64,000 nucleotides of DNA from Paramacrobiotus metropolitanus (taxonomy: Eukaryota; Tardigrada; Eutardigrada; Parachela; Macrobiotidae). A model generated the notes under the pieces. The model searched no databases. It saw nothing but the letters and a program-made list of their open reading frames with translations, and was not told the origin of the DNA. The position numbers and the translations under genes are program-made. The stretch is from positions 620,001-684,000 of the forward strand of contig NW_026570291.1 in NCBI RefSeq assembly GCF_019649055.1. The letters are read 5' to 3'. Below, piece by piece: positions 16,614 to 64,000 of the stretch (the stretch's first letter is position 1; each line of letters opens with the position of its first letter).

Positions 16614-19600
16614 TCATTTCACTTGACCTATATCTAGTAAAGAAGACAACCGTTCGTCCTCTGTGGCATCGTATTCAGGAAGCACTCCACTGAACTCATC
16701 ACTGCTTATCAACCAGTAAGTCAACATGGCGCCTTTTCCCTGTAAAACCCATGGCAAATGGCAATATTCTTGTTAATTTAGAATTTTAGACCGCAAATGC
16801 GAGTACGCGGAGTACCGCGTTATCGATTTTCCATCCTATGTATACCTTGACGTCACGTAATCCTCGTTCAACAATCCGATAAATATTAAATTCATCGAGT
16901 AAAACTTTTGTAGCTTCCGACAACTGGATTCGTAAAGGTAACGATGAGCTCTCCATCCTGGAAGCAGTATTGACTGCAAATCAAGAAGCGGCGTTAACGG
17001 TAAGACAAGTGATCTGGACTGAATTCGTAACCGCGTACCAGTATCACCAAATAGGCAGTAGTGAGGCATTTTCAGTCCCACTATGCCAGCTATCACAGGC
17101 CCGCTGTTGATTCCAATCCGTACTTTCAGCGGCTCCGTAAGAAAATCAGAAATTTTCACACTTATAACTGTGCTAAGGATGCTTAAAGCGAGATTGGCAA
17201 TTTCCGCGGAATGTTTGTTCCCGTTACGGTTTGGAATTCCGGAGACGCACATATAAGCGTCGCCAATTGTTTCCACTTTGTACACGTCAGAACTTTGTAT
17301 TATGACGGCATCGAAAGCTGCAAAACACTATTATAGTATTATACGGAGTGAATTTTTATTGACGTTAAATACTCCTACCTGAGTAAAGGTCATTCAAAAG
17401 TTTGACAACTTCAAAAGGTGTGTGAGCAGAGGCAAAGGTTGTAAAGCCAACAATATCTGAGAAGAAAACCGTGGCACTCTCGAAGTATTCAGGCTCCACT
17501 AATTCGCCACTGGCTAGCTTCGCAGCCAAAGCAGCCGGAAGCATATTGTTCAGCAATGATTCCAGACTCTTGGTCGTCTTCTCCAGATCTCGGGTTCGCT
17601 CCATGACTTTTTCCTCTAAATTAACTGCATACCGTTCTACCGCCACCATCATCGTATCCAAGATGCTTTTCTGCTTGGGATTGGCCATTTTCAGCTGCTT
17701 TAAAATCTCGGAAAACGTCGGTCGATTGTGGGGAGTGGTATCCCACGTGGACCAAATCAGCGCTCCGATTTCATCGAACTTCATGGCCAGTTCGTTATAG
17801 TACGCCGGGCGCAGTTGCTCCGATTTGATTTGCTTCAGTAGCATTTGCGGGGATTTGTAGAGATCCTCACTGAGCGCTTTCAGTACGGATTCATACGGTT
17901 CACAACCGGCGAACGTCTCATAGACGACGACACCGTAGCTGTAGACATCGGCGGATTTCTGCATGCCACCGGCGGCGTAAACTCCGGCAATCCACACCAG
18001 GGCTTCGGGAGCGGTCCAGAAGAGCAGTTTGTAGTAGTCATACTGGCTGATCTCTTGATTCTGCTCGTCTTGGAGCGCGCTGTGCACCCGCTCAAATGCG
18101 TAGAATTCAACCTTTTGGGCTTTATGCAGAGATAGTTGTTCCCAGTCGCCAATGACGACGTTCCACCGGGCATCAATATAGCAGCAGCTTGTTGTCAGCT
18201 GACCGTGGATAATGTTTTTCTGATGCAGGTGAGCCATGCCTTTCGCAATGTCGTTAATGATCGAGTTGCGAAAGATGTTATCCAGGTTGAACTTAGTTGT
18301 TCGCAGAATGTCGGTGAGTCTACCTGTAAAGAATCCGACATTTGCTAGTATTTTACAATTGCAGTTTACTTACATATGTTTCTGTTTCTGGGAGCTAAGT
18401 TTTCAGTCGCTGTTAATAGTGGCAGGATTAAAATAATGTTTCTAAAATTTTGAGGCACGATATAAGGTAGGCACGATATAAGGTAGATACAAGGTAGATA
18501 CAGTTAAATGCACCATTTAGCATAATTACTGAAAATTAATTAGCAGTTTGTCAAGTGGTTTCACTGCTATGAAAAAATTGTACAAACTCTTTATACTATA
18601 ATTAGTCCGCAGTTTCCGAAATTGGTCACAATGAATTGCGATCACTTATTTTAAAAATTTGACATATACTGTACATAGTGCTTATTTCAATACCTTTTGT
18701 AGGACATATACTGACCACCTTCCACCGTTCCTTCCTTTCACAAATTCCAATAAATTTCACGAGATTCCCCTGTGCGATCTCGTCGCGAAAGCGGACCAAC
18801 GCAATTTTGGCCTGCCAGGTCAGTTCCTCAGGATTCAAATGCGCGCATAATGGCGTCAAAAGGAGATTATCTCCGATAATCTGCTGAATAATTTCCCGTT
18901 CAAATCCGGTCGCCATCCAATCAATTATCGTCGAACTGGGGCCAGACTGTTTGGTCTTGGTGCTGGTGACAGAACCTATCGGCTTCATTTGCGTTTCGAT
19001 CTGATTATTGGACAAGATGAATGAATTTGTTAGGGCGCTCTTATGTTTCTGATACTTGGAATAACCCAACACTGACAGGACGATTAAGACAACCACCATA
19101 ACAAGAACGATGACAATAGCGGTGGGCAATTTCCACGCGTCACGGGAACCGTTTTCTACGGATATAGCGTACTCCGTCATCTCTTTAACGCTTTGACCCT
19201 GACAAATCATCTGGTTGAGCGCTTGCTGCTTGACCTGGTTAAAGGCGTTGTCGTTGAGCGGCACTTTCAAGAGATCACGGGCCACAGTTTGCGCTAAAGG
19301 GTCACTCAGTAAATAATCCAGCATACGGTACAGTTCCATGGCGACGGTGCAGTTACGCATGGTTGTTTTACGGATGACAAAGTATGTGAAGCCGGCAATG
19401 GGATAGGTCAAGTCCCTGGAAGATTGTTCAGATCAGATGTTAATCGCGCACTAAAACTGGGTGACGCATCCAGAGCGGATTGAACGTTTCTCAGGTTCGG
19501 ATAAATCAGGTAGCCGTCTTTATTTTGTAGGCGGGCTTCCATTAGGTTAGAATCTCTTGCATCAGATGTTCCCAAATACCCGATAGAGTACTTGTTCTCC

Positions 19601-24879: not shown

Positions 24880-27800
24880 TTATTTCACTTGAGTGGAATC
24901 TAACAACAAAAATAACTGGGCATCATCTGCGGAGTTATATTCAGGAAGCACTTCTTTGAACTGATCACTGCTTATTAGCCAATAAGTCATCATCGTTCCC
25001 TTTCCCTGAAAAGCAGAAAACAGCTATAAATAAATGTTCATCAGTGGTTTACTTTTCTGGTTTACTTTTCTGGTTGTACCTTCACACTCTGCATTCCTCG
25101 TTCTACCATGTGATAGATATGGAATTCATCAAGCAGTAATTTTGTCGCTTGCGACACCTGGATTCTTAAAGGCAGAGACGAGCTCTCCATGCGGGAAGCA
25201 GTATTTACTAGAAAAAACCCGAATGAAAAAGCGTTCTGTCTGCGCAGGAACGTGTTCTGTAATATCGTGCAGTGTGAGAACGACAGTTGCATACCGGTAT
25301 CACCGAAGAGACAGTAGCGGGGCATTTTCAGACCCACTATGCCGGCTATCACAGGTCCGCTGTTAATCCCGATCCGAACTTTCAGTGGTTCCGAGAGTAC
25401 CTCGGATATTCTGACCGACACTACAGTGTTCAGAATACTTAGAGCCATGTTGGCAATTTCCGCTGAGTGCTTATTGCCATTACGCTGAGGAATACCCGAA
25501 ACACACATGTAGGCATCACCAATTGTTTCCACTTTGTACACCTCTGCACTTTTCATTATCACTCCATCAAAAGCTGCAAAAAAAACCTGCATTTAGAAAC
25601 ATCGTATATTGGAAACAAATAGCCTGTACACGCTGCTCATCAGCGCAAGTGTAGCAAAACTGCTGGTACCCAAAAACTCTGATCGATAAAAGCATTGCCT
25701 CTTTACCTGAATAAAGGTCATTCAGAAGTTTCACAACTTCAAAAGGCGTATGTGTAGAAGCAAACGTCGTAAAGCCGACGACATCGGAGAAAAATACCGT
25801 GGCACTCTCAAAGTACTCAGGCTCAACCAGTTCTCCATTGGCCAGTTTGGCAGCCAATGCCGCCGGTAACATATTATTCAGCAGTGATTCCAGGCTCTTG
25901 GTTGTCTTTTCTAAATCTCTGGTGCGTTCCATCACTTTCTCTTCCAAAGTAGCAGCATAGCGCTCCACGGCTACCATCATGGTGTCCAGGATACTTTTCT
26001 GCTTCGGATTAGCTTTCTTTAGCTGTTTTAAGATTTCCGAGAATGTTGGACGGTTTTCTGGATTGGCATCCCATGTCGACCAAATTAGCGCACCGATCTG
26101 GTCGAACTTCATGGCTAATTCGTTGTAATACGCCGGTCGCAGATGATCGGATTTGATTTGTTTCAGCAGCAACTGGGGAGATTTGAAAAGGTCATCGCTC
26201 AAGGCTTTCAGTATATGTTCATATAATTCACAACCGGAAAATATCTCGTACATAACGACTCCGTAGCTGTAAACATCAGCGGGTTTCTGCATACCACTAG
26301 CGGCATATACACCCGCTATCCAAATTAACGCTTCGGGAGCCGTCCAGAAGAGCAGTCGGCAGTAGTCGTATTGGTTAATCTCTTGGTTCTCTCGTCGTTC
26401 AAAACATTGTGTATTCGTTCGTAGGCGAAAAACTCAACTCTGTTGGCTTTGTGCAGAGATAGCTGCTCCCAGTCTCCAACGACGACATTCCAACGGGCAT
26501 CGAGATAGCAGCAGCTTGTTGTCAACTGGCCATGGATAACGTTCTTTTGGTGAAGATAAGCCATGGCTTGAGCAATGTCTGTGATAATGGAACTTCGGAA
26601 GATGTTGTCCAAATGGAATTTTGTGCTGCGTAGGATGTCCGTTAACCTACCTTCAAAAATCGTAATACCTATATCATTAAACAGGCGTCCAGCTGTTCAT
26701 GCGAATGTCGCAGTTTAAACATTTACTGGCCGTCGCAAAATTAGATCTTTCTAAGTGCAGATACTAGAATTCAAATTCTCCAAACACTTTGGTCGTACAA
26801 CGGTTCCAAATAAAATTACTCGTACTCGTCTGAGTCGTCTTTACTTATATTTGTATGCATACTCGTATAGTGTTACAACAGAATACCTGTATGTATCCGA
26901 AGGCAAAATCACAGGCTTCATTACCCTACATCAACTTTACCTTTAGCGGGACAGATGCTAATAACGTTCCACCGCTGCTTCCGCTCACAAATTCCAATAA
27001 ACTTTAATACATTTCCATGATCAATGTCATCGCGAAAATGTACCAGCATGACCTTCGTCTGCCATCGCAGCGCCGTAGGCTCTAGATGGTAGCATAATGT
27101 CGTCAGCAGCAGATTATCCCCTATCATTTGATGCACAATCTCCCCTTCAAATCCCGTTATCCAGTCCACCACTTCTCCCGAACTGGGACCCGAATGTCTG
27201 GATTTCGTGCTAACGGCCGATCCAACCGGTTTGGCGTGCGCTTCGATGACCGCTGCGGGAACGATAAAAGAGTTGGTCAGCGCACTTTTATGCTTTTGAT
27301 ACTGCGCAAAACCCCACACGGAAAAAATGATTAAGCCAATAGCCATGACCAGAACGATGACGATGGCGGTAGGCAGTTTCCAGGCGTCATGAGAACCGTC
27401 TTCTAGCGACACAGCGTAATCCGTCATTTCTTTGACATTATGGCTTTGGCATGTCATTTGAAACAGCGCTTGCTGTCTGACCTGATTGAAGACGTTAGCG
27501 CTCAGTGGGACTTTCATCAGATCCCGTGCTACAGTCTGCGCTAAAGGATCACTCAGCAGATAATCAAACATTCTGTACAGTTCCATCGCAGTGGTGCAGT
27601 TGCGCATAGACGTTTTTCGGATTACGAAATACGTAAAACCGGCGATTGGATACGTTACATTTCCCCGCAGATTGTTGAGGTCGGATGTTAACCGTGCGCC
27701 GAAATTGGGCGCTGTATCGATAGCCGCTTCGACGCTGCGGAGAGTTGGGAAAATGAAGTGACCTTCTTGATTCTCCAGCCGAGCTTCCATCAAACTGGAA

Positions 27801-44828: not shown

Positions 44829-47800
44829 ATGGACAGGTGTACATTGGGGATTTTTGTTGTTGTCATCGGTGCTGCAGTGTGGCCGACCGCAGTGTGGTGT
44901 TACGTGGGAGTGGATGTGACACATTTTGTTGATATCTTCCGCGATGATTTCACCGCCGATGGACCACCGGATCCCGCCAAATGGAATGTCGGGCCGCCCA
45001 ATAAGAAAAACGCCTTTCCGGGCGAACTGCAGACATATCGCCGGGAAAATGTGGTGGTCGAAAATGGATATTTGCATATCTTTACCAGAAAGGAGGAGTT
45101 TAATGATTACAACTACACTTCCGGTCGCGTAGACACTCAGGGTCTTTTTGATTTCCAGGTGAGCGTAAATTCTGATTACACTAAATTTTAAATAGAAGTC
45201 ATTACACATGAAAGAATTTACGTTGGGAGCACATGTGTTCTGTGACTATAACTAAATTTCTGTAACTATTTTGACACACCGTAAGTATAACAACTATTTT
45301 GCCATAAATATAAAAGAAGAACTGAAAGCCTGAAAGTCACATCACGATTTAATTGCTTCTGGTGAAATTCCTACTTATTTTTTTGTGCCAATCTACACTC
45401 CTGTAAGCTTAACAATTTTATATTGATCCACATTATTGTTAATGTAATTTAACCGATAAATACTGTATTTTTTGAGCGTAAGTAATAAGCCTACACGATG
45501 TTATGCTTTGTAAGCTCTCGTATGCCTCCCTAAATTTGCATTAGATAAACAATGTTTTTTTGTACAAAGCGCTGCACGATCGTGTCAGTGTTCCCAAGAA
45601 CAAAAAGCGGGGAAAACCGGTTTCTCACACAACAGTTTATGCGAGTCAGTTCCAGAAACCGACCCTTTTTAAGCTGAATGCATTCTTTTTAATGACGTAT
45701 AGAAGCGCTGGTTCTGCATAAAATTATTTTCCGTTAAACTTTTTTGAGTTATGCCAGCGCTTCTGTGTATTCTGTGCGTTCTGCATTTCAGTCTGATTTT
45801 GTAATCAATTTCAAAGATTTTGCATTTCAGTTAGTACTCGCATACGGTTAAAATAGTAAAATACGTATTTTAGAATGCTCTTTAGCTCTGTATTTGTTTA
45901 ATTTTAAAAAGAACGATTTAGTCAGATCAGAATTTAGGTCAGCAATGCGTGCAAATACATAGAATTTTAAAGTTTCACAGTATTGTACTCGTATGTACAT
46001 TGTCGATGCCATACGTTATTGTAACCTTGCTGAATTAATCGATTAAGGCCACTTTAATGTGACAATATGGCACTCAAATCCAACACTGTGTGTCAAGTCC
46101 ACAGGTCCTTGTAAATATTTCCTCAAAATACTTATATCATAACTGTAATGTTTAGTTTGGTGAGATCGAATGGCGCGCCAAAGTGCCCAGTCCACGCGGC
46201 ATCAACCCGGCCATCTGGCTACTTCACTACCAATGCTATCCCGGAGCGCCGTGTAAAAAATGGCAGACCAATGTCAAGGTGTCCCGCGGTGATAGTGGCA
46301 ATCAGACCATCCAGACCGTCACCAACTGGAAGTATCCCCAGAGTAAACTGCCGCGCTACAACGCCGAATCCCGCAACAGCACGGCCAGTCTGCCCACGGA
46401 TCTCTCCCTGGACTTCCACATCTACAAGATTATATGGACGTCGGAGGAGCTGATCTGGGTGATTGATGATGTGGCGATATTTAATGTCACCGGCCAGGAT
46501 GTGCCCAGTACACGCATGCAGGTATACAAGTGTGTGTGTGTAATGTGTGTGTGTGCTAATAAAGAGGGATTAATGGGTTTAGTGTCGGGCACGTAAAAGT
46601 AATTTTGCTGGCGTCGACGGAATGTGGGTATGGTGTGGTAATGGTGTTATTGGCATGACACCGTGGTATGCGCCACTTAACAGCGGCACCGCGCTGACGT
46701 GGTGCGGCACGGGGTGTGTAAAGGGAATTCCTTGTTTTGGTTTGCGGAAAGCGCACAGAAGCGGAACTTGTTATTAAATAGCGCAGGTGTAGTTCAGAAA
46801 TAACTTTTTTTTGTCAACTCATCTACAGACATGCAATCTGTCATACAGGTACATGCTGCTGTCATAGATAAAAACAAACATCTCTAAACACAGGTACATG
46901 CTGCTGTCATACCGTAGATAGTTCTAAACAAAAATTTAATATTATTGCATGTTAAGGAATTTACATTATACTGCAATTTTTGATAGGAGAACTCAATACA
47001 ATTTTGTTTAATTTCGCAATGCATTCGTAATTTTATCTTACGAACGTCACCACGTACGTCGCCATTGTCTACAAACCGTTCAGAAAACAATCTTGCCGTA
47101 TAGCTAATAAATTTCAGACTTAAAAAAATGTGTAGATGCTTATATACGTATGAATTAAATTACTGGCAGTATTGCCAAGCATAAAAACACATAAGAGTCA
47201 TAATATTACAGCTGTTAAAAATTTTCACATGGTTACGTTTGCAGATCGTCATGAGTGTGACAGTAGGCGGCCCAATGGGCCCATTTCCGGCAGCGGATAC
47301 GAAATTCCCCACCGAATTTCTTATCGACTACGTGGTGGTCCGGCAGCCGGCCAATATCACCGGTCCACCCCGTCCACCGCCCGCCTCTTCATTTATCATG
47401 CCACTATTGGTCGGGCTCTTTGGGGGCATTTTAATGGTCTTCATCGGGTTGGCCGGTGCGTACTTCTACTGGAGACGACGGCGGGCACGCAAGAAAGCTA
47501 AACATCCGGTACAGTGAGTGTTGCGCAAGAATCTGGTGTTCCAAACCGGATTTTCCTTGTTAGCGGTTGGTTGCACAGTTGCATGTACACTTATACAGGT
47601 TTCACTGCAACATGCCACTTCCTTGACCGCGCTATCCAATGTATACCGGCGCAGTTCGGCATATGTCAACGCGGTTATCCAACAGGATCCGACATTTGAG
47701 GACTATCTCAAACTTTTGGACATCGATCCAACAAGTTTGACAAGCAGTACGTAATTGCATTTTCATAATTATGCCAAAACGTGTGGAATAGTATTCGCAC

Positions 47801-49823
47801 GCAGTGATTTTTGAAATCTGATGTTTTATTTTTTCAGCGGGACAATTGCTGGGCAAAGGTCAATATGGGTTCGTTTACAAAGGCGTGATAAAAAATCTTC
47901 CCACATCACCTGATACGGAGACTCTAGTGGCTATCAAAAGCCTGATCGAGTATGACGATGCAGAACAACAAAAGCAATTTATCGAAGAGATGCGGATTAT
48001 GAAGAAAGTTGGCCGGCATCTGAATATTGTTAACCTTATTGGCTTATGCCGAAGCGGTAAATTTCTCGGCAGTCAGCAAATATTCCGAATCTTTTGATTT
48101 ATGCTTTAGTGTATTATTTCCATAGCGCGTGCTTAACAAGTAGAAACAGTCCGCAGAAAAAGCAGTGAAGCAAAGAGCTGAAAAATAAATAAAAGGCTGA
48201 ACTAGATAATGAATAATCTGTATAAAAGATAGAAGGAACGCAGGAAATTTTTATTAGGTATTGTATATTGGCAGATGAAGTTTATATATGGTTATTTGCC
48301 GTGACACAACGTGGCTATATTTACAGACAAAATACTCCTAATATTTGAATACTGCCCCCATGGATCATTGCTCAAATTCCTGCGATCTCGTCGGCGGACA
48401 TTCACCGATCAGGTGGATGCCGAGGGCTATTTGATAGCGAAAGGCAGCAGTATTCCCGATGAACAGGCACCGGAAACGCCGACTGGTTATGTGCGTGTCG
48501 TATCCGGTTCGGACTATATGAGCACGACCAGTAGTGTTACCGGCAGTTGCCCTGAAGACGCCCTGACCACCTGTGATCTGATTAACTTTGCATACCAGAT
48601 TAGTAATGGTCTGGAATATTTGGCGCTACAGTCCATTATACATCGAGATATCGCTGCGCGGAATATCCTGGTAGCGGATAATTATGTTGTGAAAATTGCC
48701 GATTTTGGTATGGCCAGACGGCGACTGCTGACGGATTACAGCATGAGCAGTGATCAGGTAACACTAACTACATTAAACTATTCTGCTGAGCTATAATTTT
48801 CTGTAAAAACTTTGTTTATTTTTTTGGCACCAAAAAAATAAAAATATTATTCGCGCGCTTATAGCTTAAAAGTTCTTTGGTTATTGCTGTTGTTCCAAAT
48901 TGTTGATTTTATTTCATTGCAAAGGTATGGTAATTGTTGAATTTTAATTCGTTTGTTGTTCGCATATTGAAATGGAAAAGCGCGCAATATACTACGGATT
49001 ATCGCTCCGCGAACAATGCATGTGGTTAACGAAAGTTGACAGTTGTGACCTCTAGGATGGCCGTAGCACCTAACTGCGCATTACCTGCTGTTTACTGAAT
49101 TCATTGATTTGTTAATTAGCCTTCACTTTATTAATCTTCGCCATCGTCACACAGGTGGCCTTACCCATCAAATGGATGGCCCCCGAATCGATTCTCCATC
49201 GTACTTTTTCCTACAAAAGCGATGTGTGGTCGTTTGGTGTACTGCTGTGGGAGATTTTCAGTTTGGGCGATGTACCATATTCATCCACTTCCGGTGGCTC
49301 ACAATTTAATGGCAACATTGCGCAGTTCGTTAATTCACTTACAAACGGCGCACGAATGCACAGGCCACCGTATTCGCCACTACCGATGTACGTGCATGTA
49401 CAATGTAGAATAAGTAATCTGGATATATAATTATATAATTTATAAGATAATACATGTTTAAAAAACTGGCGACTTGTTTAATCGCATCTTTTGCGCTTTT
49501 ACGCGTAAACATAACTGTAACCGTAATTTTAATTTTGTTGCTTTCAGTAACAAAGTTATGGTTCTTGCAATTACAGATACGAAATTATTGGCAAATGCTG
49601 GGAATTGCAAATAGAAAATCGCCCATCAATCGACATAATCCGCCAGGATTTAGCTCAGTTAATTTCGCCGGCATCGTCAGAATTCTATTTGAAACTGGAA
49701 GAACCGTATATTAACTATAACAGCACATTCCGGAAAATTTTAAACACCGGCGGAACTCATGCTCCTGTGGCAGCACAGTCTTCCGTGTCCTCCGCCTATC
49801 AAGTTATGGAAAGGCAGTTATGA
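44829..49823 (+). CDS. Receptor tyrosine kinase with inactive GH16 (beta-glucan-binding type) ectodomain
   Basis: Eight exons: 44829-45158, 46156-46521, 47245-47508, 47599-47746, 47838-48056, 48327-48757, 49155-49387, 49577-49823. Phases agree and give 745 residues. A signal peptide is followed by a GH16 jelly-roll (about 35-267): [65 protein letters not shown] and [11 protein letters not shown]. The E-x-D-x-x-E catalytic motif after PAIWLL is absent, replaced by a Cys-containing, Asn-glycosylatable segment, so it is probably a binding domain. Then come a Pro-rich stalk, a membrane helix (about 283-306), [12 protein letters not shown], and a kinase: [32 protein letters not shown], with a kinase insert of roughly 60 residues containing YVRV and YMST, as in PDGFR/VEGFR-type kinases. 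Inference: beta-glucan or other glycan sensing. The exon 3 donor (GTACAG rather than the nearby GTGAGT) is chosen to keep frame. Confidence 0.88.
46845..46911. repeat. 22-bp direct repeat, two copies
   Basis: Identical units lie at 46845-46866 and 46890-46911, in intron 2 of the receptor kinase. Confidence 0.85.
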
Positions 49824-52588: not shown

Positions 52589-55500
52589 ATGTCGTACCAG
52601 GGTGAACATGTAGTTTACGTCGATAGACCTGATCCGACGACCAACATTGACGATGATGCCGGCAGATTCGGCGATGCAGCGATCCGCAAAGGTATAAAGT
52701 AAAGCACCCTGTTAGAATTTATATTAGGAGATTATTATAGTCACGGGAACAGAAACCGGAAGCGTCGCACACACTGGTGTTGTTCTGTTATGTTCTGTTC
52801 ATCAACGTTATACAAGATGGTTGCTTATATAGCACACGGTACATTCATGATATTAGTAAGTTACTGCACCTAAACATCTGATAAACAAGGGGATTGGTGA
52901 CCTGGGTGCACCGTACACTCATAGATCAGTTAGTAGGACAATGGTCATAGTTCACAAGTACATGACACATCATGAGTGTATATTATATTGGTAATATAAT
53001 TTCTAACACCCCCCTTCACCCAGCGCGCCATATCCACTGAAATGCACACTGGTTCCAAAGGTTCTTGATTCGGATCCTTGATATCTTCACATTGATTCTC
53101 TCACGCGTTCACGTCGGCAATGTTGCACTCGGTGTCCCACGATTCCACAGTTAGTGCAAGCCGGGCAAGTTGGACATGTTCTGGTTGTGTGTCCTTGCAT
53201 TCCGCAGTAGTTGCATTCGATGTCCATATCTTGATATGCGGATCCTGAAGTCCGTGGTCCTGGCGCTTGATCATCTCTCTCTCTTTTATTCTCTCTCTCT
53301 CTCTCTTTTAATCTCTCTCTCTCTCTCTGACTGAAACTCGGATACGCTGATCCGAAAGGTCCTTTAGGATATCCTCGGTTTTCTTCTTGGCTTTTTATCA
53401 TCTGTTCAGTTAACATCAGCTTTTCACGGAAGACGCTCATCTTCGGATCGGGGCCAGCCATCATATTCCATGATGCCACAAAGGGTCCGTATTCAACTGG
53501 CAGGCTGGACAGTGTTTTCGAAATCAGCCACTCATCGCTGGTTTTCACGGCTTTCCCACAGGCGTCGATCTTCGATGCCAATACGTGCAGCGTTGACATG
53601 AAGGTATTAACGTCGTCGTTATCCTTCCACTTCAGTCCGAAAAACTCAGTCATCGCGGTCATTAAGTCGCATCCAGTTTTCGGCTCCCTTAACTCTTTAA
53701 TCCGATCCAAAATTTCCGCTGATGTATTACAATCTCGTACCTGGTTAAAGGTGACGTCGTCGAGCGTCGCTCGCAAAATGCTCCTCGCTTTTCCGTCTCC
53801 GGATATCCATTTATTATACGCGGCATGTTTCTTCTCGTCTGCTGGATCATCTCTTGGTATCTTGTTGCTTCCATCCACAATGCTCCACACGCCTTCTCCA
53901 GTTAAGACGTCCTCCACTTCGACTCTCCATCGAGCGTAGTTCGAGCCATTGAGTACCGTGACCTTGATCTCCTTCAACGTTGCCATCTTGGCGTCCGTAA
54001 CAGTAACAGTAGTAAACCACTATACTAATAAGACACGGCAGATACAACTTCCTGCTTAGAGACAAGCAGGTCTCATAATCTGTTAGAATTTATATTAGGA
54101 GATTATTATAGTCACGGGAACAGAAACCGGAAGCGTCGCACACACTGGTGTTGTTCTGTTATGTTCTGTTCATCAACGTTATACAAGATGGTTGCTTATA
54201 TAGCACACGGTACATTCATGATATTAGTAAGTTACTGCACCTAAACATCTGATAAACAAGGGGATTGGTGACCTGGGTGCACCGTACACTCATAGATCAG
54301 TTAGTAGGACAATGGTCATAGTTCACAAGTACATGACACATCATGAGTGTATATTATATTGGTAATATAATTTCTAACACACCCAGTTGCGAGTCTGTAA
54401 ATGCCAGTGCTTTAAATTCACATCTCCGTTAACTTGGTTTCGCAATTAAAAAAGACAGGTAACGCAACGGAAACTGTAGCACCCGGTTCGCCAGGTAGCA
54501 CTTTTTTGACGTGCGTTGTGCAGACCCGAGACGTGACGGCGACAGTATGTTTAAGTAGAGTTATCGCGCAATGTTTGACGTTAATTGGTACGTCTGGAGT
54601 ACGTAGACTACGTAAATTTACAACGAAATTGTTACAATTAAAACGCATCCGTCCTGGCTCCGTATTTTGACGGTGCTCGGCACATCTAATCCATGAAGGC
54701 CTTTTTACGAAATCGAACCGGGGCATACTGTAGTCTGTAGCCATACATAAATTTTCACTGCAGTATTCAAAAACTCATTTAATTTATCAAACTGCGGTAC
54801 TCGTACATAATTAAAGAAAAACTGTACAGCAATTCTGTCCCACGTATTGTGTGTAAGAATTTATTTAGTGCACTTACAAGTTTGCAAAGCACATTATAGC
54901 CGCAAGTAATTAATGTGAAGTTTAGGTTTTCTTAAAGTCTAAAAGATCTTTTAAAACGTGAACTTAATTAACTGATGTCTATTGCATACCACACTGCTTG
55001 GCAAATAATCTTTTGCACGGTTTTCCAGGATTTATCCGGAAGGTATTCGGAATTCTTGTAGTGCAGCTAATAGTGACCATGCTGATTATTGCGATGTTTA
55101 TTTACGTGTAAGTTGTCGCAACTATAAAAGTCTTGTTTATTAATACTTAATAATTCTAAAATTCAAAGCTATAATCCCTTACAGTGATGAAGTAAGATTG
55201 TACGCGAGCACGCACATTTGGATGGTATGGACTGCCCTGTAAGTACGTCACCTTTCGACTCTACTGCATACTCACAGAAGATTTTATTTAATAAATAAAT
55301 AGTTAGTTAGCAAATAATAAATGTAATAAATAAATAAAATAAATAAATAGTTACCATTTTGTTTAGCAAACAAGTTTATGTGAATATTATTGCTTTATAG
55401 CTGCCAACATAAAAAGTCAACACAGTTTAAGTTTTTTTAGGTTGTTGACTTTGATGATGTTAATTGTACTGGCCTGTGCTGACGACATACGGAGAAGGAC

Positions 55501-60672: not shown

Positions 60673-63238
<2,566 letters not shown>

Positions 63239-64000
63239 CTTGGAAAATGTCGAGCCTACAATGATTTAATGAGGTTGTAATTTTTCCGATCGTTGTATAA
63301 GTGATTTTACTGTCTAATAAGAAAACCAACATCCAGTAATTTCCTCCGCTCCCGATGGACTCAACTATTTGAGACTATTAGTGAAGCTGAAGCATAAACT
63401 GGTTTTTTGGTCACCCCGCTGCGAGAACACACATACTGTACAGTGGTACACTATCTGCGATGATAAATTCAAATATTTGGATGGGAAAATTTGTGTTACA
63501 AACTTGACTGTACACAAAACTGGAAACCTGCTTCGCCGAGTAACTTTTTAAAAAAGTAAAAAGAAATCAGAAAATTGTGAAAATACTTTTTTTCGTGAAA
63601 TTTATGAAGTGCCAAAATAAATCTTCAGTATTGGTCAATAATGCGGCAAGAATGGCAGTTAGGAAACTCATTTCTTTTTCAAAACCATCATTTTTTCAAA
63701 TATGGGGAAATGATTTTGTCGGTCGAAACTAAAAAAACATTCGCCAAAAACCGCAGCAAATGCCACCACCGGAAGGCGGATCGATGTCGAATGTTAGAAA
63801 AGTCAAGCTCAAGGTCGTTGTACATTAGATGCATTTTCTGCGACGAGCCAGCGCGCGCGCTGTGTGAAATCGATGAGCTAAAAGCAGCCTATCTCAGCCG
63901 GAGTGAGAGGGAGAAAAATCTATGTTTCAACCTGACATTCAACACCATAATCCTTTCAATCGTCAACTTGAGTATCAACGGCACTACATCACGCAAATAT
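63239..64000. other. PHTF intron or upstream sequence
   Basis: I see no exon I can support. The missing PHTF N-terminal exon is either here and unrecognised or outside the window. Confidence 0.4.

Follow-up and report, generated by a model that had tools for sequence, protein, structure and literature searches.

What might a receptor sense when its extracellular part has the fold of an enzyme and lacks that enzyme's catalytic motif? The question is raised by a gene in a 64,000-nucleotide stretch (the window) of contig C71 of the 170 Mb genome of the tardigrade Paramacrobiotus metropolitanus. This gene, on the plus strand from an ATG at 44829 to a TGA at 49821-49823, is predicted to encode a receptor tyrosine kinase (RTK) with a GH16 domain outside the membrane. 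We lean toward the reading, which we hold with some reserve, that it is a single-pass polysaccharide-binding RTK with a catalytically dead ectodomain of the GH16 beta-1,3-glucanase fold, and that it belongs to a large tardigrade family derived from one fusion.

The gene has eight exons, all of its introns are GT-AG, and its product has 745 residues; hand splicing and a splice-aware protein-to-DNA alignment agree on this model. By the latter alignment, the spliced frame is identical end to end, and exon for exon, with NCBI protein P0001, whose database name is "platelet-derived growth factor receptor beta-like [Paramacrobiotus metropolitanus]". An earlier prediction made from the sequence of the window gave the span 44829..49823 and the length of 745 residues exactly, although it spoke of exons 1-5. 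Exon 1 (44829-45158) carries the start codon, a signal-peptide-like hydrophobic stretch (residues ~3-28) and the beginning of the GH16 domain, as supported by the splice model, hydropathy and identity with P0001. The middle of this domain, including the pair Cys137-x5-Cys143 as well as the site of the lost catalytic motif (~46270-46284), is assigned to exon 2 (46156-46521) by the splice model and the GH16 alignment. Exon 3 (47245-47508) holds the end of GH16, a stalk, the transmembrane helix (~47395-47469) and basic stop-transfer residues, according to the splice and structure models, and exon 4 (47599-47746) encodes the juxtamembrane segment. Hydropathy marks two hydrophobic stretches, at residues ~3-28 and 278-308 (numbered without the first Met), and the structure model places a single membrane helix at residues 283-316, so that the one helix originally proposed is found by both approaches.

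The extracellular part is recognizable as GH16 in sequence and in predicted fold. The Pfam model Glyco_hydro_16 matches residues 70-241 (E 1.3e-13), and the whole domain (residues ~35-267; 44931..47349, over exons 1-3) resembles GH16 endo-beta-1,3-glucanases, that is, laminarinases such as 3azy, 4dfs and 3iln, and shows the GH16 beta-jelly-roll. The original prediction had named this fold and allowed that a structure prediction might yield another; Pfam search and structure comparisons both return GH16. Unlike the enzymes, the window protein lacks both catalytic Glu residues and the catalytic Asp, and it is membrane-bound and fused to a kinase. The E-x-D-x-x-E motif, reported as missing from the outset, is indeed absent by alignment and by motif scans. 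The short domain C98b was removed before 75 GH16 domains were aligned; in that alignment the corresponding columns of the window protein read N-V-K-V and a gap, with N, K and the gap in the E, D and E columns. The complete motif occurs in 40 of 41 outside domains versus 1 of 34 tardigrade domains. The outside set consists of 40 proteins chosen from search matches (three, then every third of P0015-P0125); some bear bacterial names, most are unnamed metagenome proteins, and the label "bact" in our alignments is our own. Relative to tryptophans conserved in the outside enzymes, the groove of the window protein retains W131 and W146, has Asn at position 127, and is altered at columns 236 and 245 as well. 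Some other family members retain more groove residues: of 33 tardigrade rows, 13 have Trp at column 127 and 16 have it at column 131.

A separate observation concerns P0018, a metagenome protein of 425 residues in the outside set. Its GH16 motif region, WPPEIDVMEMRG, is closely similar to that of the tardigrade protein C25d (see below), and the organism that carries P0018 might shed light on where the GH16-RTK family came from.

The intracellular part is a full tyrosine kinase with an insert, as had been proposed. PK_Tyr_Ser-Thr (PF07714) matches residues 371-689 with E 9.7e-81, and comparison with sequences in the PDB also supports this domain, which lies at 47838..49652, over exons 5-8. Exon 5 (47838-48056) encodes the N-lobe with the glycine loop GKGQYGFV and the VAIK lysine; exon 6 (48327-48757) the hinge, the kinase insert, the HRDIAARN catalytic loop and DFG; and exon 7 (49155-49387) the last part of the activation segment (WMAPES) together with part of the C-lobe, each supported by the splice model, Pfam and a motif check. 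The end of the C-lobe, the C-terminal tail and the TGA stop are in exon 8 (49577-49823; splice model and P0001 alignment). The catalytic Lys, the HRD Asp, the DFG Asp (as DFGM) and WMAPES are all present, and judged by these motifs the kinase looks catalytically alive. Against solved structures it scores best with VEGFR1 (204.7 bits), followed by PDGFRA (203), FLT3 (201), KIT (194) and FGFR2 (194); an EGFR entry with a higher score is a single chain that contains the kinase twice, and the five scores, all within ~11 bits, are too close to assign the kinase class. The protein shares with RTKs of the PDGFR, VEGFR, KIT and FGFR types a single membrane pass, a kinase with an insert and intact catalytic motifs. 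In contrast to them, its ectodomain is GH16, and Pfam scans of P0001 and eight further family proteins detect no immunoglobulin-like domain, GH16 standing in that place.

The window gene is one of many, which the original prediction overlooked. A genome search with GH16 returned 40 places, and one with P0001, which scored 60 of its 611 candidates, returned 84. After gene modelling, 38 GH16 loci could be sorted into 26 that are followed by a kinase on their own strand and 12 without one in the stretches examined. The 26 are a lower bound, and some members are possibly pseudogenes. A 39th locus (C25:1164914-1166957) was modelled and has no kinase, and an additional GH16 match at C96:67224 was only partly covered. 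In a single comparison, the paralogue P0002 aligns with the window protein through GH16, membrane helix and kinase, with 35% identity (E 4e-122). E-x-D-x-x-E is absent from the GH16 part of all 26 kinase-linked locus models, and the sole match to the bare pattern falls in the kinase of the window protein. Some models span just one of the two GH16 units of their gene, and 40 stretches (198,512 bases) were therefore also scanned in all six frames; the strict motif turned up once, in the kinase-free C25d.

Kinase motifs are widely preserved in the family. In 21 of the 26 kinase-linked models the Lys, HRD and DFG patterns are present and no stop occurs; the other five are C136a (HCD), C98a (HFG) and C25b, C25c and C7a (stops in the model). 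Among 21 members examined for the glycine loop, its pattern is unmatched in C354, C98a, C98b and C7a. Two members deserve separate mention. The receptor at C98:217501-220120, with HFG replacing DFG, is a possible pseudokinase. The database model P0009 (C136:165537-169024) contains the kinase segment three times, with HCD replacing HRD, and the DNA gives three overlapping matches; the repeat may represent a tandem exon duplication or alternative exons.

Gene structure is consistent across the kinase part of the family. Among six members compared, the four kinase introns have identical alignment columns and phases in all six, and the intron preceding the kinase likewise has a common phase and column, except that P0011, whose model is incomplete, is shifted by one column in both cases; GH16 introns differ among the same members. 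In P0007, P0008 and C74, the GH16 domain, membrane helix and juxtamembrane part form one uninterrupted exon. The original prediction had recognized that transcripts ending the GH16 part before the helix would undermine it; the database model spans the helix, and these paralogues encode both in a single exon. Two tandem GH16 units precede the helix in P0011 and also in P0012 and P0013, which are partly incomplete (C25:1150-1175 kb and C144; L044-L047 and L052). The family is hidden by its database names, which are PDGFR-, FGFR-, VEGFR-, Kit- and M-CSF-receptor-like.

The dead domain appears to be maintained. For six paralogues (C74, C354, C6b, C154, C282 and C53, the window gene not among them), the ratio of nonsynonymous to synonymous substitution rates (dN/dS) over 15 pairs is 0.04-0.29 for the GH16 part and 0.12-0.44 for the kinase; these are pairwise averages, with a number of dS values close to 1 or exceeding it. 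The low GH16 values indicate purifying selection on this domain in the six paralogues. Arms-race evolution of the GH16 part was considered and rejected, since the same pairwise values show strong constraint rather than diversification.

Several GH16 genes of the same genome lack a kinase. C25d (C25:1201256-1202301; L001, L030) is predicted to be secreted, has an intron and retains an intact EIDVME; GH16 receptor genes are found ~26 kb from it on contig C25. The related C25e and C25f, ~1 Mb away on that contig, retain the D and not the full motif. C96a-c (C96:69042-76900; L036, L043, L033) are three tandem genes with a signal-like start and a lost motif that stop directly after the GH16 domain; C96b has in-frame stops and is a possible pseudogene. 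They are the nearest GH16 relatives of the window gene (support 100/99) and possible soluble partners or decoys.

The architecture also occurs in a second tardigrade genus. Hypsibius exemplaris P0014 (775 residues), filed as "Macrophage colony-stimulating factor 1 receptor", combines GH16 without the catalytic motif and a kinase, and in a single comparison shares 38% identity with the window protein over the full length (E 2e-158). An extracellular part and a single transmembrane helix in one polypeptide are predicted for the window protein, its paralogue and this Hypsibius relative. A consensus query of ectodomain and kinase N-lobe matched 484 proteins, of which 120 were listed; nine of these are tardigrade-named (eight from P. 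metropolitanus, one from Hypsibius), and the other 111 have GH16 and no kinase domain in precomputed Pfam lists. No further animal-named protein is among the 120 listed, and scoring covered only the 7994 candidates sharing the most words, so that Ramazzottius and other animals may well have members. Earlier searches with the ectodomains of P0001 and P0002 returned four and three proteins, respectively. Between the window gene and P0014, which form the closest kinase pair (49% over 317 columns) and group weakly in the GH16 tree (88/49), orthology was proposed and not upheld: in a kinase tree from which 2 of 26 rows were dropped, their clade is unsupported, appearing in 46% of bootstrap trees, and the approximately unbiased test does not reject it (p 0.437).

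After 18 of the 75 rows had been dropped as long, partial or near-copies, a tree of the remaining 57 domains, which we rooted on the outside set (100/96), places the receptor-type domains and the kinase-free C96a-c, C9b, C9c and C154b in one clade (100/99), with C25d/e/f (100/97) adjoining just outside it. A quick tree of all 75 rows gives the same main groups, with several deep forks weakly supported. The simplest account of these trees would be one GH16-RTK fusion, with catalysis lost before the radiation and the kinase lost later in some copies. The nearest outside sequences among the matches listed are bacterial-type beta-glucanases. A tblastn search of plasmids with P0001 gave 274 records, of which not one reached 60% identity or covered 80% of the query; the best two matches, GH16-type with 33% identity, are from Persicobacter and Emticicia. 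A bacterial origin of the GH16 part is only suggested. The family also offers a case of an apparent change from enzyme to receptor, with a relative that keeps the full catalytic motif still encoded by the same genome.

Arthropod GNBP/BGRP proteins have a GH16-like fold without catalysis that serves in recognition, and they carry an N-terminal CBM39 domain. The original prediction likened the window protein to them, and a likeness beyond the shared noncatalytic fold is not supported: the window protein is a receptor rather than a secreted protein, and no CBM39 was found in the nine family proteins scanned (E 0.001). Kinship with GNBP/BGRP is accordingly not supported, given also the bacterial-type nearest matches, in trees that contain no arthropod or other animal GNBP sequences. 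A whole-genome search for CBM39 was without a match, but its controls were equally silent, so its absence from the genome stays unproven.

The list of RTK ectodomains is short and well known, and we know of no glycosidase fold on it. Here such a fold is found at 26 loci of one animal and in a second genus. In the literature searched, with preprints and most subscription papers outside its scope, no description of an RTK with GH16 was found, as the original prediction had supposed; the GH16-RTKs are apparently a large, undescribed tardigrade receptor family. In its main text, a paper on the holozoan tyrosine kinome has no word beginning with "tardigrad" or "glyco" (PMC8662651). The main text of the Hypsibius/Ramazzottius genome paper does not contain "GH16" or "glucan"; among clusters exclusive to both tardigrades, that paper reports 27 kinase clusters of matching domain architecture (PMC5531438). 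Plant CHRK1 shows that receptor kinases can have a glycosidase fold for their ectodomain (PMC5485988, PMC4707873). The similarity is one of architecture only: CHRK1-type proteins are plant receptor-like kinases with a GH18 chitinase-like domain, the window gene is not a member, and the CHRK1 ectodomain is called predicted enzymatically active in one source (PMC5485988). According to a survey of eight tardigrades, which included Hypsibius exemplaris and Paramacrobiotus richtersi and not P. metropolitanus, GNBP1/3 homologues were in no sample and Relish was in no tardigrade, Toll-like receptors were present, and PGRP homologues were found in eutardigrades except one (PMC7056985). GH16-RTKs offer a testable idea of how tardigrades, for which the survey reported no GNBP1/3, might sense microbial or food polysaccharides.

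If the window protein is a polysaccharide receptor, its pseudoenzyme domain would retain a carbohydrate-binding groove for a multivalent ligand, such as a beta-1,3-glucan or some other beta-linked glycan, whether from algae, fungi or bacteria or from the matrix of the animal itself. Binding of a repetitive polysaccharide would cluster receptors, whose kinases could then trans-phosphorylate each other and signal, with the kinase insert and the tail providing docking sites; secreted kinase-free relatives might act as soluble binders or decoys. Such a receptor might serve immunity, feeding or matrix sensing, as the original prediction put forward. In a bolder version, a single fusion joined a laminarinase, perhaps a bacterial one, to an RTK; the GH16 part then lost catalysis but retained its polysaccharide groove, and the fusion gave rise to dozens of glucan receptors. 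We regard this version as possible but doubtful. If true, tardigrades would have a recognition system of their own, replacing the immune components covered by that survey or operating beside them, in which direct contact with microbial or algal glucan leads to tyrosine phosphorylation and the secreted relatives are soluble partners.

Several points weigh against polysaccharide binding or the receptor architecture. The architecture is read from genomic DNA and gene models, and binding is proposed from sequence. The groove of the window protein, changed at several columns, may bind something else or nothing sugar-like, and because it is more altered than that of some paralogues, the glucan proposal is weaker for this member. 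The structure model has low confidence at residues ~141-190, including the motif region, and its kinase part is poor (mean pLDDT, a per-residue confidence score, of 59.2). The database proteins P0012 and P0013 stop before or inside the kinase; in the DNA the kinase follows at both loci, and it is broken at the P0013 locus. Finally, dead glycosidase folds are known as protein binders.

The last point leads to the main rival. As in Klotho, a dead glycosidase fold could dock a secreted protein or peptide, possibly a secreted GH16 relative, and the window gene would then encode a growth-factor or developmental receptor to which no sugar binds. One source describes Klotho and beta-Klotho as cell-surface proteins with glycosidase-like ectodomains that serve RTK signalling, two such domains in tandem (KL1 and KL2) binding FGF hormones; they differ from the window protein in being separate FGFR co-receptors with a short intracellular part (PMC10284700). 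The loss of several groove residues and the close kinship with C96a-c favor this explanation, whereas the fuller set of groove tryptophans in some other members speaks against it, and a strong lineage expansion would suit environmental ligands better than a fixed hormone. Overall we judge protein docking unlikely, yet worth taking seriously.

A receptor of this kind might instead read self material, namely the cuticle, the eggshell or extracellular polysaccharide, much as discoidin-domain receptors read collagen. GH16-fold proteins are established binders of many beta-linked polysaccharides, and selection on GH16 in the six paralogues, which is purifying and not diversifying, would agree with a self ligand. 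However, 26 loci are many for one structural ligand, and we consider self-matrix sensing improbable. If the database names are taken at their word, the gene would be an ordinary orthologue of PDGFR, VEGFR or FGFR, in line with its kinase scores; with GH16 and no immunoglobulin domain in nine of nine family proteins, this is very improbable. Least credible is an annotation artefact that joined adjacent GH16 and kinase genes, which the truncated P0012 and P0013 and the reliance on genomic models might suggest, and which we rejected on the same order and strand at 26 loci, the shared exon and intron structure including the one-exon GH16-helix-juxtamembrane genes, and the same architecture in Hypsibius.

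The window has other features as well. On the minus strand, frames at 17368-18369 and 25570-26433 encode a kinase-like domain that continues into a guanylate cyclase domain, and they resemble receptor guanylate cyclase genes. A Copia-type retrotransposon gag frame (PF14223, E 5.2e-21) lies at 53090-54019 and a frame with the PHTF1/2 N-terminal domain (PF12129) at 61931-63265, both also on the minus strand, and a CoA transferase frame (PF01144) occupies 1357-2043 of the plus strand.

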